Of a stretch of DNA of 34,164 nt, positions 11,256-34,164 are shown piece by piece. Each line of letters starts with the position of its first letter. Position 1 is the stretch's first letter. The notes under the pieces were generated by a model, which worked only from the letters and a program-made list of their open reading frames with translations, made no database searches and had not been told where the DNA came from. The DNA is from a virus: positions 1 through 34,164 of IMG/VR virus record IMGVR_UViG_3300032213_000993; one strand, 5' to 3'. Made by a program: the position numbers and the translations under genes.

Positions 11256-14200
11256 ATGGCCGTTACTTTAAATGTAAATGGAAACTATTATTACTACCCA
11301 GAACAGGGTGACTTAAACTGGGGTACCGATGCCACAGATTGGGCCGTAGCTGTTACTGGTGGTATGTTACAAAAAGCTGGTGGATCTTTTATCCTCCAAT
11401 CTGAAGTAGACTTTGGCGCAAACTATGGTCTAAAATCACTATATTACAAATCACGCACAACTAACCCCGCTACTTCTGGTCAAATAAGACTAGCAGTATC
11501 AGATACTATATCCTTTAGAAACAATGCCAACTCAGGCAACCTAGCCTTATCTGTGAATGGCAGTGACCAACTACTATTTAACGGTTCTGCCTTAGGTGGA
11601 GTTTGGGGTAGCATTACAGGTACACTATCTTCACAAACAGATTTACAAACAGCTCTAAATGCTAAAGTTGCTGGCCCAGCATCGGCTACTGATAATGCCT
11701 TAGTTAGATTTGATGCCACTACGGGTAAACTTATACAAGATAGTTCTGCTATACTAGATGATTCAGCTAACCTATCTGGTCTAAAAACTGCTGAACTACG
11801 CAATGATGACGACTTAACTTCACCTACCACTCCTGTAATCAGGATGGAGAACCAAAATAGTACATCTACCTCTGCTGCTCATGTTGAATTTAGGCGTTCT
11901 AGGGCATCTACTGCTGACCTAAGCAATGGTGACACAGTAGGTAGACAAGATTATCACGGTAGACATAACTCTTCTTGGGCTTCTATAGCCAAAATGGAAG
12001 TATTATATACAGGTAATGGTACTACTCGCTTAGGCGATATAGTCCTTTACACGGCTAATGCTGGTGCACCTGCTGAAAGACTTAGGATTAAGGCTGATGG
12101 ATCTTTAACTTTAGCCTCTGCTACAGTATCTACCGTACCTTACTTTGACGCTAGCAAGAATCTAGTGAGTTCTTCTGTCACTCCTACTGAATTAGGATAT
12201 GTTTCAGGTGTAACTTCAGCTATTCAAACGCAACTTAATGCTAAACAAGCAACTGGCAACTATATTACAGCTTTAACTGGTGAAGTAACGGCCTCAGGAC
12301 CTGGTTCTGCTACTGCTACTGTGACTAATTCTGCGGTAATAGCTAAGGTACTTACTGGCTATGTCTCAGGTGCTGGTACGGTTGCTGCTACAGATTCTAT
12401 TCTCCAAGCAATTCAGAAGCTTAACGGTAATGATGCTACTAATGCTAACCTTACTGGCGTAGTTACGTCCGTAGGTAATGCTACTTCTATTGCTAACGGT
12501 GTTATCACTAACGCTATGCTAGCCAACGCTGCTGTAGCTAATCTATCTGGTACTAACACAGGTGATCAAACCTCTGTTTCTGGCAACTCCGGTTCTACTG
12601 ATGCTCTTAAATCAGCTACAACTACCATTAACGTATCTGCGGCTACTGCACCTTCAGCAAATCAGGTGCTTACGGCTACTTCTAGTACCACAGCTACATG
12701 GCAAACACCTGTTACAGGTTTTGCTGACCCAATGACTACTCGTGGTGATATAATCTACCGTAACGCCTCTAACGTCACCTCTAGACTAGGTAGAGGCGCT
12801 AATACTTATGTTCTTACCTCAGATGGTACAGATATATCCTGGGCAGCATCAGCTAGCGGTGGAGCTAATACAGCTTTATCAAACCTAGCATCTGTTGCTA
12901 TAAATGATTCACTTATATTCGGTACTAGTGTCAATGGTATTTTAAAAACCAATGATGGTACTGGCGGAACTGCTTCTGAAAACATACAAGTCGGATCAGG
13001 AAACCAAAGCGGTTCTGCTAATACTGGTTATGCGTGGCTTAGAACTGGTGATACTAATCTAGGTACAGGTAACTCAGGTAACGTTTTAATTAACTCAGGT
13101 ACAGCAGCTACTAGTCATACAACAGGTAGTGTTTCTATATCTTCAGGTGATACAGGTACAGGTACCACAGGTTCACTATCTTTAACATCTGGATCTGCAT
13201 CTGGAGCAGGTACTTCTGGTAATATAACACTTTCCATTGGTACTACTTCTGGCGGTACTAGAGGTAAAATCAAGTTCGTAGATGGTAGTGAAGGTACTAC
13301 TGGTCACGTTTGGACATCAACCGATACTGTTGGTAACGGACATTGGGCAGCTGCATCTGGTGGCGGTGATATGGTACTTGCCTCAGTACAAACAGTAACT
13401 GGTGCTAAAACTTTCGGTACTATTGGTGGAGCGGTAGGTAAGTTTATACTTGCAGGTTCTACTTCAGGTTCATCTATCCTTAATGCGGCAGCAATAGCAG
13501 GATCTACCACCCTTACATTACCAGGAACTACTGGAACTTTAGTAGGTAGTGGTGATACAGGAACAGTTACTAGTACAATGCTTGCTGGTTCTATAGCACT
13601 ATCTAAATTAGCAGCTTTAACTGTATCTAGGGCATTGCAAACTAACTCTTCAACTGGTGCGATAGAAGTATCTTCAGTCACCAATACTGAATTGGGCTAC
13701 TTATCGGGCGTTACATCATCAATACAGACACAGATTGATGCTAAAGGCGTTGGTGATATGGTACTTGCCTCAGTACAAACAGTAACTGGAGCTAAGACAT
13801 TTGGTACCATAGGCGGAGCGGTAGGTAAACTTATACTTGCTGGTTCTACATCAGGCTCTTCTATCCTTAACGCTGCTGCTATAGCGGGTTCTACTACAAT
13901 AACGTTACCAGGAACTACTGGAACTTTAGCTTTAAATCCAATGACAACTGGTGGCGATATAGTTTATGGTGGTGCATCTGGCGTAGAAACTAGACTTGCC
14001 AATGGTTCTTCAGGACAAGTATTAACTTCAGCTGGTGGTACATCAGCCCCTACATGGGGTGCAGGTACAACTGCTGCCACTGCCTCTACTGTTGCTGGTA
14101 GAGATGCTAACGCAAACATTACCGTAAAGAGCATGATTGAAGGTTGGACAACTACCGCTACTGCCGGTGGTACAACAAACATGACTATTGCTAGCAATCC

Positions 14201-14621
14201 TAACCAAGTTTGGACAGGAACTCTTGCGCAAACAGTCACATTGCCTACTACAAGCGTTGCTCAAGGTCAAAGATGGGTTATATCCAACGAATCAACTAGT
14301 GCTATTACTGTTCAATCGTCTGGTGCCAATACAATTAAGGTAATGGTTCCAAGTTCATATGCTACATTTACTGCCGTAGTAGCTACACCTACAACTGCCG
14401 CTAACTGGCGAGTAGATTATACTTCAAGTGAAGTTCTCACCACTATCGGTGATACAGATTACGCTGGTACGAACGGCATTAGGACTAGGTTGGCAGCTGG
14501 TACTGCTGGCCAGGTATTACAAAGTAATGGTGCCTCAGCTCCTTCTTGGGTAACTCCAGCAACCTCATCAGGTACTACTGGTCGTATATTTAACGTCGCT
14601 AACTCATTTTACGTCATATAA
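11256..14621 (+). CDS. Long tail fibre protein 1
   Basis: An 1121-aa repetitive fibre. Residues about 1-115 are related to the start of the fibre at 16280 (shared LQKAGG, LYYKS/AYYKS, IRLAV-DTI and FRNNANS patterns), so they are probably the virion-attachment domain. The shaft is rich in Ser/Thr/Gly/Ala/Asn and has fibre modules such as TELGYVSGVTSAIQTQLNAK. A 59-residue module occurs twice (13365-13541 and 13752-13928). The C terminus (TVTLPTTSVAQGQRWVISN and later) is a beta-rich tip. No S74 chaperone domain is visible at its end. It would bind host surface receptors. Confidence 0.88.
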   Translation: MAVTLNVNGNYYYYPEQGDLNWGTDATDWAVAVTGGMLQKAGGSFILQSEVDFGANYGLKSLYYKSRTTNPATSGQIRLAVSDTISFRNNANSGNLALSVNGSDQLLFNGSALGGVWGSITGTLSSQTDLQTALNAKVAGPASATDNALVRFDATTGKLIQDSSAILDDSANLSGLKTAELRNDDDLTSPTTPVIRMENQNSTSTSAAHVEFRRSRASTADLSNGDTVGRQDYHGRHNSSWASIAKMEVLYTGNGTTRLGDIVLYTANAGAPAERLRIKADGSLTLASATVSTVPYFDASKNLVSSSVTPTELGYVSGVTSAIQTQLNAKQATGNYITALTGEVTASGPGSATATVTNSAVIAKVLTGYVSGAGTVAATDSILQAIQKLNGNDATNANLTGVVTSVGNATSIANGVITNAMLANAAVANLSGTNTGDQTSVSGNSGSTDALKSATTTINVSAATAPSANQVLTATSSTTATWQTPVTGFADPMTTRGDIIYRNASNVTSRLGRGANTYVLTSDGTDISWAASASGGANTALSNLASVAINDSLIFGTSVNGILKTNDGTGGTASENIQVGSGNQSGSANTGYAWLRTGDTNLGTGNSGNVLINSGTAATSHTTGSVSISSGDTGTGTTGSLSLTSGSASGAGTSGNITLSIGTTSGGTRGKIKFVDGSEGTTGHVWTSTDTVGNGHWAAASGGGDMVLASVQTVTGAKTFGTIGGAVGKFILAGSTSGSSILNAAAIAGSTTLTLPGTTGTLVGSGDTGTVTSTMLAGSIALSKLAALTVSRALQTNSSTGAIEVSSVTNTELGYLSGVTSSIQTQIDAKGVGDMVLASVQTVTGAKTFGTIGGAVGKLILAGSTSGSSILNAAAIAGSTTITLPGTTGTLALNPMTTGGDIVYGGASGVETRLANGSSGQVLTSAGGTSAPTWGAGTTAATASTVAGRDANANITVKSMIEGWTTTATAGGTTNMTIASNPNQVWTGTLAQTVTLPTTSVAQGQRWVISNESTSAITVQSSGANTIKVMVPSSYATFTAVVATPTTAANWRVDYTSSEVLTTIGDTDYAGTNGIRTRLAAGTAGQVLQSNGASAPSWVTPATSSGTTGRIFNVANSFYVI
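13365..13541 (+). repeat. Fibre 1 shaft module, copy A
   Basis: A 177-bp in-frame module beginning GDMVLASVQTVTGAKTFG. Copy B at 13752-13928 encodes 57 of the same 59 residues (F/L and L/I replacements), while the DNA differs at many synonymous positions. Confidence 0.85.
13752..13928 (+). repeat. Fibre 1 shaft module, copy B
   Basis: Second copy of the 59-residue module, 387 bp after copy A and in the same frame. Third-position differences (for example GGTGCTAAAACTTTC against GGAGCTAAGACATTT) show the duplication is old or was domesticated against recombination. Confidence 0.85.
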
Positions 14622-16279: not shown

Positions 16280-18502
16280 ATGTCAATCCCTTTAATAGTA
16301 AATGGTATATCATATGATTACCCAGAACGTGGTGATACCTCATGGGGACCAGACGCCACAGACTGGGCTAATGCTGTCACCACTGGTATGCTTCAAAAGG
16401 CTGGAGGTACGTTTACCTTACTTGCTGAAGTATCATTTGGTAATACTTATGGAATAAAATCAGCATATTACAAGTCTTCATCCTCAAATATAGCCTCAGT
16501 TGGCCAAGTTAGGCTGGCTGTAGGTGATACTATAGCTTTTCGCAACAATGCCAATTCAGCTGACTTAGCTTTTGGTGTAAACTCTATCAATGAGCCACTT
16601 TTTAATGGGAATGTGTTACTTAGCGGATTATTAAGTAACGCCAATATATCACCTTCTGCTGCTATATCTTATTCCAAACTTAGTTTAACCAACTCTATAG
16701 TTAATGCTGACATCAGTTCCTCTGCCGCTATAGCATATTCTAAACTAAACCTCGCTACTTCTATCCTGAATGCTGATATAAACGCCTCAGCAGCTATAGC
16801 ACTATCTAAATTAGCTGCTACTACAGCTAGTAGGGCATTGGTTTCTGATGGATCAGGACTTATTTCTGCTTCTAGTGTTACTTCTACTGAACTTGGCTAC
16901 CTATCAGGTGTAACATCCGCTGTCCAAACACAACTTGACGCACGCTTACCTCTGGTAGGTGGAACAATGGCTGGTGCTATTGCTATGGGTAGTAATAAAA
17001 TCACTGGTTTAGGCACTCCTACTGTAGATACTGATGCTGCCACTAAACAATATGTAGACTCAATCGCTACAGGTATCGTAGTACATACAGCTTGTAGGGT
17101 AGCAACTACCGTAGCAGGAACACTAGCTACATCATTTGAAAATGGTGACACAATTGACGGGGTTGTACTAGCTACTAACGACCGTATCCTTATTAAGAAC
17201 CAAGCAAGTGCCGCTGAAAACGGTATATACACAGTTAATGCCTCTGGAGCACCTACAAGAGCTACTGATGCTGACACTTGGGCTGAAATGGTACAAGCCT
17301 ATGTCCTAATGACAGCTGGTACTGTAAACGCCAATACAGGTTGGAAAGCTGACTCTGTAGCCGGTGGTACTTTAGGTGTCACTGCTATCAACTGGGCACA
17401 ATTCACTGTAGCTGCCTCTGTTACAGCTGGTGTAGCTATCAATGTTACAGGATCTTTAATAGATGTCAAATATGATAACTCTACTATAGGTGTAAACGGC
17501 TCTAACCAATTGATTGTTAAGGCTTTAGGTGTCACCAACGCTGAAGTAAGTGCTTCTGCTGCTATAGCATTGTCTAAATTAGCTGCTACTACTGCCTCAA
17601 GAGCTTTGGTAAGTGATGGCTCTGGCCTTATATCTGCCTCCTCTGTAACTGCTACTGAATTAGGTTATGTAAGTGGTGTAACCTCTGCCATACAAACTCA
17701 AATCGATAATGTAATCACTTACGCCAAGGTTGCTCAATCTGATACAGTCTCTGGTGTAGGGTTTAGTTTCTCTGTAGGTGCTTCTGCTCTTACAATCAAC
17801 CTTAAACAACCAGACGGTTCTACTGATTGTACATCATCCAATCCTGCTCATATATCCTTTAGATCTAGTACTTTAGCTACAGGATCAGTATTAGATCGCT
17901 CTGTAACAGGTGCTTTAAGCATGACAGTGTCTTCTGGTGCTACTTTAGGGTGTAATGATGCTGTTGATGAGTATTTATACCTATACGCTATTGATAACGC
18001 AGGTACAGTTGAACTAGCTATATCTGGTTCATATCACTGGGATGAAGGTCAAAGGTATACAACTACTGTTATGAACTCCTCAGCTGATGATGCTGCGACT
18101 CTATACTCCACTACTGCACGGTCAAACGTAGCTATTAGGTTGATAGGTAGGATTAAATCTAACCAGACTACAGCCGGTACTTATGCTGCTGTCCCTACTG
18201 AAGTGTGCGGTATAAACTTTACTAAAGATCAGACAATCTCTAAAACGGCTTCATTTAATGCTAAACATGGGTATACTTACCTATTAACTACTTCTGGTGC
18301 TAGAACTGTAACGCTCCCTACACCTCGATCTGGTTTAACCTTTAAGATTAAGGATGTCTCTGGTACAGCCAATACTAATAACATCACCCTAGCACGATTT
18401 AGTGCTGAATCTATTGAAGGTGTAGCTGCCTCTAAAGTACTACAAACTAACTGGGGTGTGTGGATAATAACTAGTGATGGAACCAACTGGTTTTTGGTGT
18501 AA
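16280..18502 (+). CDS. Long tail fibre protein 2
   Basis: A 740-aa fibre whose first about 115 residues are homologous to those of fibre 1 (compare PERGDTSWGPDATDWANAV with PEQGDLNWGTDATDWAVAV). The shaft has short repeats of SAAIALSKL type and a 51-residue module present twice (16784-16936 and 17552-17704). The C-terminal region (TVTLPTPRSGLTFKIKDVSG, ending TSDGTNWFLV) resembles a receptor-binding tip domain seen at the end of many fibres. The two fibres probably share a docking site on the tail, either together or as alternatives. Confidence 0.87.
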   Translation: MSIPLIVNGISYDYPERGDTSWGPDATDWANAVTTGMLQKAGGTFTLLAEVSFGNTYGIKSAYYKSSSSNIASVGQVRLAVGDTIAFRNNANSADLAFGVNSINEPLFNGNVLLSGLLSNANISPSAAISYSKLSLTNSIVNADISSSAAIAYSKLNLATSILNADINASAAIALSKLAATTASRALVSDGSGLISASSVTSTELGYLSGVTSAVQTQLDARLPLVGGTMAGAIAMGSNKITGLGTPTVDTDAATKQYVDSIATGIVVHTACRVATTVAGTLATSFENGDTIDGVVLATNDRILIKNQASAAENGIYTVNASGAPTRATDADTWAEMVQAYVLMTAGTVNANTGWKADSVAGGTLGVTAINWAQFTVAASVTAGVAINVTGSLIDVKYDNSTIGVNGSNQLIVKALGVTNAEVSASAAIALSKLAATTASRALVSDGSGLISASSVTATELGYVSGVTSAIQTQIDNVITYAKVAQSDTVSGVGFSFSVGASALTINLKQPDGSTDCTSSNPAHISFRSSTLATGSVLDRSVTGALSMTVSSGATLGCNDAVDEYLYLYAIDNAGTVELAISGSYHWDEGQRYTTTVMNSSADDAATLYSTTARSNVAIRLIGRIKSNQTTAGTYAAVPTEVCGINFTKDQTISKTASFNAKHGYTYLLTTSGARTVTLPTPRSGLTFKIKDVSGTANTNNITLARFSAESIEGVAASKVLQTNWGVWIITSDGTNWFLV
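16784..16936 (+). repeat. Fibre 2 shaft module, copy A
   Basis: A 153-bp in-frame module starting ASAAIALSKLAATTASRAL. Copy B at 17552-17704 shares 47 of 51 residues, but the DNA differs at many silent sites. It includes the TELGY-SGVTS element also present in fibre 1. Confidence 0.8.
17552..17704 (+). repeat. Fibre 2 shaft module, copy B
   Basis: Second copy of the 51-residue module, 768 bp downstream and in the same frame, with conservative replacements (S/A, L/V, V/I, L/I) towards its end. Confidence 0.8.
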
Positions 18503-32765: not shown

Positions 32766-33416
32766 ATGAAGACGTTTTGTTTAGACAGTGAAGATGCAGT
32801 AAAGTACGGAGTAGAAGAAGCAATAATCCTTTACCACTTTAGGTATTGGATAAATGTTAATAAAATCAACAACAAGCATAACTATGAAGGAAGACATTGG
32901 TGTTATAACTCATTTAAGAGTTTACTTGAACTATTCCCATTCTTTAAAAATGAGAGTAAGTGTTGCCGACTTATACAGAACCTAATGAAAGATGGTGTAC
33001 TAGTTAAAGGTAACTTTAATAAGAAAGGATATGATAGGACTGTTTGGTATACACTTAATGATGGTACTGCAATAGCTACTAAGCCTTCAGAGGATGAAGA
33101 AGACTCCGTCAAAACTGACGGAACCATCAGTCAAAACCGACAGATCAATCAGTCAAAACTGACAGAACCATCCGTCAAGATCGACGGAACCATCCGTCAA
33201 GATCGACGGAACCATCCGTCAAAACTGACGGAACCATCCGTCAAAACTGACGGACCTATACCTATAACTCTCTATAACAAAACTAAGACTAACTATGCCG
33301 GAGAGGGAAGTAAGGTAAGGGAAGAGATTGTAAATCCTCAGGAAGGTGAAGGATATAACTTCTCCTACTTAGATGATGATCTTCTTCTCTCACTACAACA
33401 ATGCTTTCCTGAATAG
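32766..33416 (+). CDS. Replication initiator with internal origin
   Basis: A 216-aa protein. The N-terminal about 100 residues (VEEAIILYHFRYWINVNKIN, then GRHWCYNSFKSLLELFPFF and NLMKDGVLVKGNFNKKGYDR) match the winged-helix N-terminal domain common to phage replication initiators and replisome organisers. Residues about 113-163 are encoded by seven iterons and are low complexity (SVKTDGTISQNRQ). A short C-terminal segment may contact the host replisome. The layout parallels lambda O, whose gene contains the iterons of the origin. Shine-Dalgarno AAAGGAGA. Confidence 0.82.
   Translation: MKTFCLDSEDAVKYGVEEAIILYHFRYWINVNKINNKHNYEGRHWCYNSFKSLLELFPFFKNESKCCRLIQNLMKDGVLVKGNFNKKGYDRTVWYTLNDGTAIATKPSEDEEDSVKTDGTISQNRQINQSKLTEPSVKIDGTIRQDRRNHPSKLTEPSVKTDGPIPITLYNKTKTNYAGEGSKVREEIVNPQEGEGYNFSYLDDDLLLSLQQCFPE
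33106..33253. repeat. Seven 22-bp iterons, probable replication origin
   Basis: Seven copies of a 16-bp dyad start at 33106, 33128, 33150, 33172, 33194, 33216 and 33238, exactly 22 bp apart. The consensus is CCGTCAAAACTGACGG, with 6-bp arms CCGTCA/TGACGG. Copies 1, 6 and 7 are exact; 4 and 5 have AAGATCG in the centre; 2 and 3 have CAG ends. A 22-bp period is about two helical turns, so bound initiators would line up on one face. 22 is not a multiple of 3, so the coding frame shifts between copies. Confidence 0.88.
33254..33297. other. A/T-rich stretch beside the iterons
   Basis: 44 bases with 13 G/C immediately after the last iteron, including CTATACCTATAACTC. It is the candidate unwinding element, as in lambda, where an A/T-rich block adjoins the iterons. 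The A/T excess is modest. Confidence 0.45.
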
Positions 33417-33434: not shown

Positions 33435-33797
33435 ATGAACAGAAAGTATGCTAGAATTGATTTAAAACCTTCCTGGATACAAACACTCACACCAAACAAA
33501 GGATTGACTAGAATGAAAGATTTAAAAGATTTAACTGAATTACTAAACCCTGCTGAAATTGACTTTATCACCCGTATGCATGTCCCTATGGACATTGAAA
33601 ATGTGAAAGCAATGTGTATCAATATAACTCACTGTGGCTTTACAGGGAACGAACAAGAGAATTACACTCAGTGGAGTAATGTACAAAGACCCAACTGGTT
33701 CGTTACACGCAAAGCCTTCCTGACTTGCCAGGGTATACTAGAAAAGATTGATGAATACGAATTTGACCTAGCGATAGAAAAGACATTAACTAAGTAG
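33435..33797 (+). CDS. Unknown protein in the helicase-loader position, 120 aa
   Basis: A protein following the initiator by 18 bases. It has no Walker motif and no recognised family. It is mixed charged, with SWIQTLTPNKGLTRMKDLKD, LLNPAEIDFITRMHVP and RPNWFVTRKAFLTCQGILEK. The gene after an O-like initiator often encodes a helicase loader (as lambda P), so this is a candidate by position only. An internal ATG at 33513 is an alternative start. Confidence 0.68.
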   Translation: MNRKYARIDLKPSWIQTLTPNKGLTRMKDLKDLTELLNPAEIDFITRMHVPMDIENVKAMCINITHCGFTGNEQENYTQWSNVQRPNWFVTRKAFLTCQGILEKIDEYEFDLAIEKTLTK

Positions 33798-33818: not shown

Positions 33819-34097
33819 ATGAACACCCCAAGCCATCTAAACTGTACTAAGTGTCTAGAAATACTACCAATTGAATCCTTTTCTAAATCAACTCAATCAA
33901 GTAAAATGAGGTTCGGTAAACAGTATCAATGTAAAACCTGTACTAACACCTTTAGTAATGCTTACTACAAAGCTAACTATGTGCCCAAAATCAAAGTCAA
34001 AAAAGATGCTACATTAAACATAAGTGAAACTGACTTTAACAACTCTTGGGAATCAGTCTACTTAAGTGAAGTAAGTCGTTACTATAAACCCTTCTAA
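33819..34097 (+). CDS. Zinc-ribbon protein, 92 aa
   Basis: Two Cys-x2-Cys pairs (C9/C12 in NCTKCLEI and C38/C41 in QCKTCTNT) about 25 residues apart make a zinc ribbon of the type seen in phage small proteins and beside HNH nucleases. No HNH catalytic motif is present. The region between reads PIESFSKSTQSSKMRFGKQY, a common pattern in such proteins (phenylalanine, then a basic loop). The Shine-Dalgarno TAGGAGATAAT precedes the ATG. The last 56 bases lie in the terminal repeat, and the unit ends at the terminator that follows. Confidence 0.75.
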   Translation: MNTPSHLNCTKCLEILPIESFSKSTQSSKMRFGKQYQCKTCTNTFSNAYYKANYVPKIKVKKDATLNISETDFNNSWESVYLSEVSRYYKPF

Positions 34098-34164
34098 TCA
34101 CTCCTACATTTCTAAATACCTATCACCTAACTAAAAATTAGGTGATTATTTTAATTTATTTTAA
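34042..34164. repeat. Terminal direct repeat, right copy
   Basis: Exact copy of bases 1-123. Joining the two copies gives a circle of about 34,041 bp in which the gene at 33819-34097 runs intact into its terminator, then into the promoter before 217. Confidence 0.95.
34122..34151 (+). terminator. Rho-independent terminator, right-hand copy
   Basis: Same 9-bp hairpin and T-rich tract as at 81-110, lying within the terminal repeat 24 bases after the stop codon at 34097. In the circular genome there is only one copy. Confidence 0.85.

Follow-up and report, generated by a model that had tools for sequence, protein, structure and literature searches.

An origin of replication placed within the initiator gene is a known arrangement, found in phage lambda and in plasmid pSK41. 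In lambdoid phages, ori lies in the middle of the O gene and contains 4-6 iterons (PMC7466680). In pSK41, the origin is central within rep: the Rep boxes lie in the linker between the N- and C-domains, a segment that the protein can do without, and the C-domain is genus-specific (PMC5703833). Plasmid pPR9 carries a chimeric initiator, in which a phage-like N-domain and its origin replaced the pSK41 module and the C-domain stayed (PMC5703833). Here, a locus was analysed in a 34,164-nt record of an uncultivated phage (IMG/VR record IMGVR_UViG_3300032213_000993; "the window" denotes this whole stretch), together with its homologs, and the more interesting part is that the layout is family-wide. 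The array region described below is read as the replication origin of the phage, of the lambda/pSK41 type and located in the linker-coding part of the initiator gene, with a probability of roughly 0.88. This reading draws on the anatomy of the sequence, on conservation and phase in homologs, on the predicted fold of the protein and on the linkage between array and N-domain; binding, melting, helicase recruitment and start-site use are what we infer from them.

The iteron array (33105-33254, unstranded) consists of seven 18-bp imperfect dyads (14 half-sites) with a 22-bp period. The dyads start at 33105, 33127, 33149, 33171, 33193, 33215 and 33237 (start-to-start spacing 22, 22, 22, 22, 22 and 22 bp), and TRF reported a period of 22 with 6.8 copies and a score of 209, the top-scoring array of the window. 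The earlier note had proposed seven dyads at exact 22-bp spacing, which was right, and had placed them at 33106-33253: the array is there, but it is two bases wider and its dyad is 18 bp long. Each unit is composed of the imperfect dyad TCCGTC-AAAACT-GACGGA and a spacer of 4 bp, in most cases ACCA. In copies 2-3, both outer positions are A (TCAGTC/GACAGA), which is not compensatory, and the centre is altered to AAGATC in copies 4-5; these changes weaken the dyad and do not abolish it. The half-sites alternate in orientation and are ~11 bp apart. When the whole window was scanned with a degenerate iteron pattern, 12 matches were obtained (0.3 expected), 12/12 within the array and none outside it. 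As single-stranded DNA, the array folded 8.4 s.d. better than shuffles. Its G+C content is 49% vs 33-37% in the surroundings, and its A+T content is 51% vs 60% genome-wide. The exact 18-mer was also searched in viral contigs and was discarded as a lead: four contigs gave a single match each, about the chance expectation by our estimate.

The array is contained in an initiator-like coding region, as the earlier note had claimed. The ORF (32766-33416, plus strand, 216 aa, TAG stop) matched phrog_11233 "replication initiation protein" over residues 1-131 (E 1.7e-27), as well as the DnaD-like helicase loader phrog_6493 (1.3e-15) and the O-like phrog_678 (5e-7); no significant match was obtained with Pfam or NCBIfam. 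Residues ~1-105 (32766-33083, plus strand) were modelled with AlphaFold2 as a winged-helix DNA-binding domain (pLDDT 90.5, pTM 0.81), in which residues 63-75 form the putative recognition helix, and the array lies after this domain, in the linker-coding part. In a fold search of the PDB, the top six matches were all N-domains of Rep initiators (best 4pql, 4pt7 and 5kbj; TM-score to query 0.56-0.64, probability 0.99-1.00, best E 1.6e-3), and one Rep initiator structure among the matches is a Rep-DNA complex. Further searches by sequence were negative: the N-domain profile had no meaningful match in the PDB, the Pfam RepA_N profile (PF06970) did not match the initiator at E<=10, Phage_rep_O (PF04492) had no match in the ORF (lambda O itself 5.7e-36), and the HMM of the initiator family misses lambda O.

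The initiator can be compared with two kinds of described initiators. With RepA_N initiators (pSK41, pTZ2162 and PLE RepA), the predicted N-domain fold is shared, but the Pfam RepA_N sequence match is absent from the window; pSK41 has four Rep boxes vs seven units here, and the iterons of PLE are located in noncoding DNA outside the gene, unlike the intragenic array of the window. With lambda O/ori-lambda and the Stx phages, the window shares imperfect-dyad iterons with an A-tract centre, placed in the initiator gene between the DNA-binding and C-terminal domains. As in origins of the lambda and pSK41 kind, tandem repeats are present in the initiator CDS and an A/T-rich region is adjacent; in both lambda ori and the window this region adjoins the iterons, and the iteron cores look alike (TCCCTCAAAACGAGGGA in lambda, TCCGTCAAAACTGACGGA in the window). 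The annotated lambda iterons have start-to-start distances of 20, 24 and 23 bp, which bears out the earlier statement that the window has more units and a stricter period. Unlike lambda O, the N-domain of the window is not a Phage_rep_O domain, and unlike in lambda, no P-like loader gene was recognisable among the scanned ORFs of the window. The parallel with lambda O/ori that the earlier note had drawn stands for the layout, but in the model the N-domain is closer in fold to the RepA_N/pSK41 initiators than to lambda O.

Homologs were collected by the initiator protein only (main scans by the winged-helix domain alone), so that selection was independent of the DNA repeats. The set comprised 150 non-redundant genes, including that of the window, and was bounded by the reach of the peptide-pattern scans. 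For the locus scan, three sub-alignments were used, because one alignment with all 24 homologs proved too diverse. Direct relatives (phrog_11233/phrog_6493) were found in phages and phage-plasmids of Bacteroides, Vibrio, Staphylococcus, Listeria and Levilactobacillus. Most of the first relatives viewed carried a 22/23-bp tandem dyad array of different sequence right after a ...GNFNKKGYDRTxWYT motif. When tandem lags from 15 to 45 were compared in each of the 150 genes, the best was 22 in 77, 23 in 10 and 44 or 45 in 27, i.e. 22/23 or 44/45 in 114/150; initiators of this family that lack repeats, which the earlier note had named as the refuting case, are not the rule. The score exceeded every one of 60 codon shuffles in 110/150 genes (these controls keep codons, not phylogeny), and the window had the highest score of all (88; next 65). 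In the same genes, mean identity at lag 22 was 0.43 in the array region vs 0.27-0.28 in four control regions, which included the winged-helix and C-terminal coding parts. On this sequence evidence, an intragenic array is common in the initiator family and is not one phage's curiosity. In most relatives, array, box and A/T block follow one another at this position as they do in the window. Their iterons are fewer and differ from those of the window in sequence, and the C-terminal domain, which belongs to one of many unrelated kinds, is usually intact. The number of units ending at the box has a mode of 3, the seven of the window being the maximum, and in a minority of homologs no more than one or two units can be recognised. 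With its seven regular sites, the window is an extreme member and would be well suited to testing the effect of site number.

Directly 3' of the last iteron lies the junction box CCTATACC (33255-33262, plus strand), phase-locked to the dyads. It is followed by an A/T-rich block (33263-33298, unstranded), in which CTATAAC occurs twice, 10 bp apart, and then ACTAAGACTAAC; this block is a likely DNA unwinding element. The A+T content is 65% over 33255-33274 and 75% over 33275-33294, in agreement with the A/T-richer block that had been noted after the array. The block of the window is only moderately A/T-rich and is without the clean 12-mer repeats of many relatives; across the family, the region adjoining the array rises to 72% A+T. 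A CC(T/A)ATACC box was found in 124/150 homologs, vs 18.9 expected by codon shuffling, and is absent as defined from the other 26/150. After the array, relatives carry CCTATACC or CCAATACC and then A/T-rich 12-bp repeats, e.g. ACCAGATAAAAA or ACTACAGAGACT, and autocorrelation downstream of the box peaked at lag 12 (0.425 vs ~0.30, 150 homologs). Top-strand runs of ACTACTA/CTTCTACTAAG were also seen in the A/T blocks of relatives (L013:5500-5550, L011:5405-5450 and L029); they resemble the DnaA-trio/DnaD recognition element of oriC (CTACTATTACTTCTACTA, TnnT; PMC10201434). Some short relatives (139 aa; L007:5001-5420, L009:416-835 and L026:1501-1920) show no clear array and end in (P)IPNNEYIYIEPY, with a TATATATATATA run shortly past the CCAATACC box; they are possibly a minimal initiator without the C-terminal domain.

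A search for dyad axes, as opposed to repeats, showed that axes across homologs step sharply by exactly 11.0 bp; successive half-sites thus switch orientation roughly every helical turn, and one "22-bp repeat" corresponds to two 11-bp axis steps. The window has 13 axes, with a score of 0.88 that exceeds codon shuffles by 22.9 s.d. Measured from axis to box, the distance was 9.5 mod 11 in 42/84 clear cases and 0 mod 11 in 19/84; array and box thus commonly share a fixed helical register, which argues that they are one functional unit.

Other functions for the array were weighed against this geometry. It could be an operator or incompatibility array, through which the initiator or a phage repressor would autoregulate transcription or copy number, the origin being elsewhere. 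Such roles of iterons are common in plasmids (general knowledge; PMC5703833), and binding by the encoded winged helix would be expected either way, but the array lies mid-gene and not at a promoter, has no further copies in the window, and is coupled in register to the box and A/T-rich block across homologs; we consider this function unlikely. Very unlikely, in our judgement, is an element acting at the RNA level, i.e. tandem hairpins in the mRNA or in an antisense transcript that regulate translation or termination: the array of the window does fold well as RNA (z -6.8; homolog average -2.2) and a terminator-like match is present on the minus strand (33125-33102), but less than half of the sampled homologs fold clearly better than shuffles, and strict 11-bp axis steps, together with the base-pair phase relative to the box, agree with proteins bound along the helix and not with hairpins.

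We give the least credence to a protein-level repeat or slippage product: a tandem repeat that expands fast within a disordered linker and has no function as DNA. The linker is of low complexity, and the dispensability of its pSK41 counterpart for the protein (PMC5703833) could be cited for this idea; the same dispensability also fits the rotating reading frames of the array. The 22-bp unit is, however, read in all three frames, so that no peptide is repeated at this period (the rotating-frame peptides SVKTDGT, QSKLTEP and IRQDRRN quoted in the earlier note are correct), and the 22-bp period recurs in homologs with differing repeat sequences, dyad symmetry being kept. The lag of the homologs (22/23 bp) is not a multiple of 3, and the proposal that the array conserves DNA rather than protein sequence is supported.

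For the origin reading, a mechanism can be proposed by analogy with lambda O (PMC7466680) and pSK41 Rep (PMC5703833). The winged-helix N-domain would bind the seven dyads, probably as one monomer per 6-7-bp half-site, and the bound proteins would lie on one face of the helix because half-sites alternate every ~11 bp. The bound initiators might then form a compact, bent nucleoprotein array, like the O-some of lambda; the register of this array relative to the CCTATACC box and the adjoining A/T block would be fixed. This block would melt and take up the host helicase, brought in by the initiator's C-terminal part or by a partner, and the protein segment encoded by the array would serve as a flexible linker. 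Correlation of residues with half-sites, weak and with phylogeny uncontrolled, placed positions 65, 67 and 71 of the putative recognition helix in the top nine; it was led by residue 24, probably a clade marker.

The two ends of the initiator differ in their evolution. N-domains formed one similarity cluster and C-terminal regions 29, and 306/516 pairs with N-domain identity >=60% had no detectable C-terminal similarity; recognised C-domains include DnaB_2/DnaD (a Staphylococcus phage) and Phg_2220_C (a Listeria phage). In pairs with similar N-domains and unrelated C-domains, sharing of array 6-mers was 0.198 vs 0.094 in unrelated pairs, and sharing of the A/T block 0.230 vs 0.060, the pairs not being independent. 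By this comparison, the array sequence follows the N-domain while C-terminal domains are swapped. Because array and A/T block are shared despite unrelated C-domains, the DNA-binding domain and its origin appear to travel together. pPR9 offers a natural precedent for the same kind of module exchange (PMC5703833); its N-domain is HTH_36, and the likeness considered here is that of module exchange. A broader proposal, to which we give even odds, is that one three-part origin grammar (alternating 11-bp half-sites, a phased CC(T/A)ATACC box and a 12-bp-periodic melting region) is used by a large initiator family in phages of Bacteroidota, Bacillota and Pseudomonadota, with N-domain and origin as one cassette, C-domains exchanged, and the box/12-mer as a separate specific element (e.g. 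a strand-specific single-strand binding site) and not mere A/T-richness. The corresponding sequence rule (22-bp dyad array, box and A/T block directly past the winged-helix domain) would allow replication origins to be read from many uncultivated phage and prophage genomes, and the odd low-complexity linkers of these initiators (ETTTETT, PDINTDIN) would be explained as DNA-driven.

The C-terminal end of the initiator in the window is unusual. In relatives, a single longer protein continues into a C-terminal domain where the window, a short way past the linker, has an amber codon (33414-33416, plus strand), beyond which the reading frame runs on without a stop for another 126 codons, roughly the length of the missing domain. 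An ORF in the frame of the initiator (33435-33797, plus strand) occupies the position of the relatives' C-terminal, presumably helicase-recruiting, domain; it had no homolog in phage records or in the IMG/VR scan, and comparison with the C-termini of the homologs gave nothing convincing. In RepA_N initiators, the C-domain engages DnaG primase; in the window, the initiator ORF stops before such a domain. The amber codon may reflect two separate proteins, readthrough or a mutation. Genome-wide TAG recoding was considered and dropped: it had no positive evidence, TAG ends other ORFs too and the window has no tRNA gene. The ORFs scanned, among them those of the early region, contained no recognisable C-terminal helicase-recruiting domain and no recognisable replicative helicase, loader, primase or polymerase; a diverged helicase loader in the genome is possible.

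Two other origin signals were examined. In the GC-skew check suggested by the earlier note, the raw cumulative curve peaked near 33 kb, but skew at 4-fold sites was negative along the whole genome, with no switch at the array, and skew was set aside as evidence for the origin. For DnaA boxes, one TTWTNCACA match was found in the window (18459) vs 4 expected by chance, and none near the array. An exact 123-bp direct terminal repeat (1-123 and 34042-34164) is present, and the record therefore probably represents a whole phage genome of ~34.0 kb, either circular or circularly permuted. Shortly past the initiator gene, a small zinc-finger ORF (33819-34097) is in part like endonuclease VII families (phrog_1035, 5.5e-8). 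Finally, the large ORFs 11256-14621 and 16280-18502 have alike N-terminal starts (YPEQGD/YPERGD...ATDWAxAVTxGMLQKAGG) and probably encode paralogous structural proteins.
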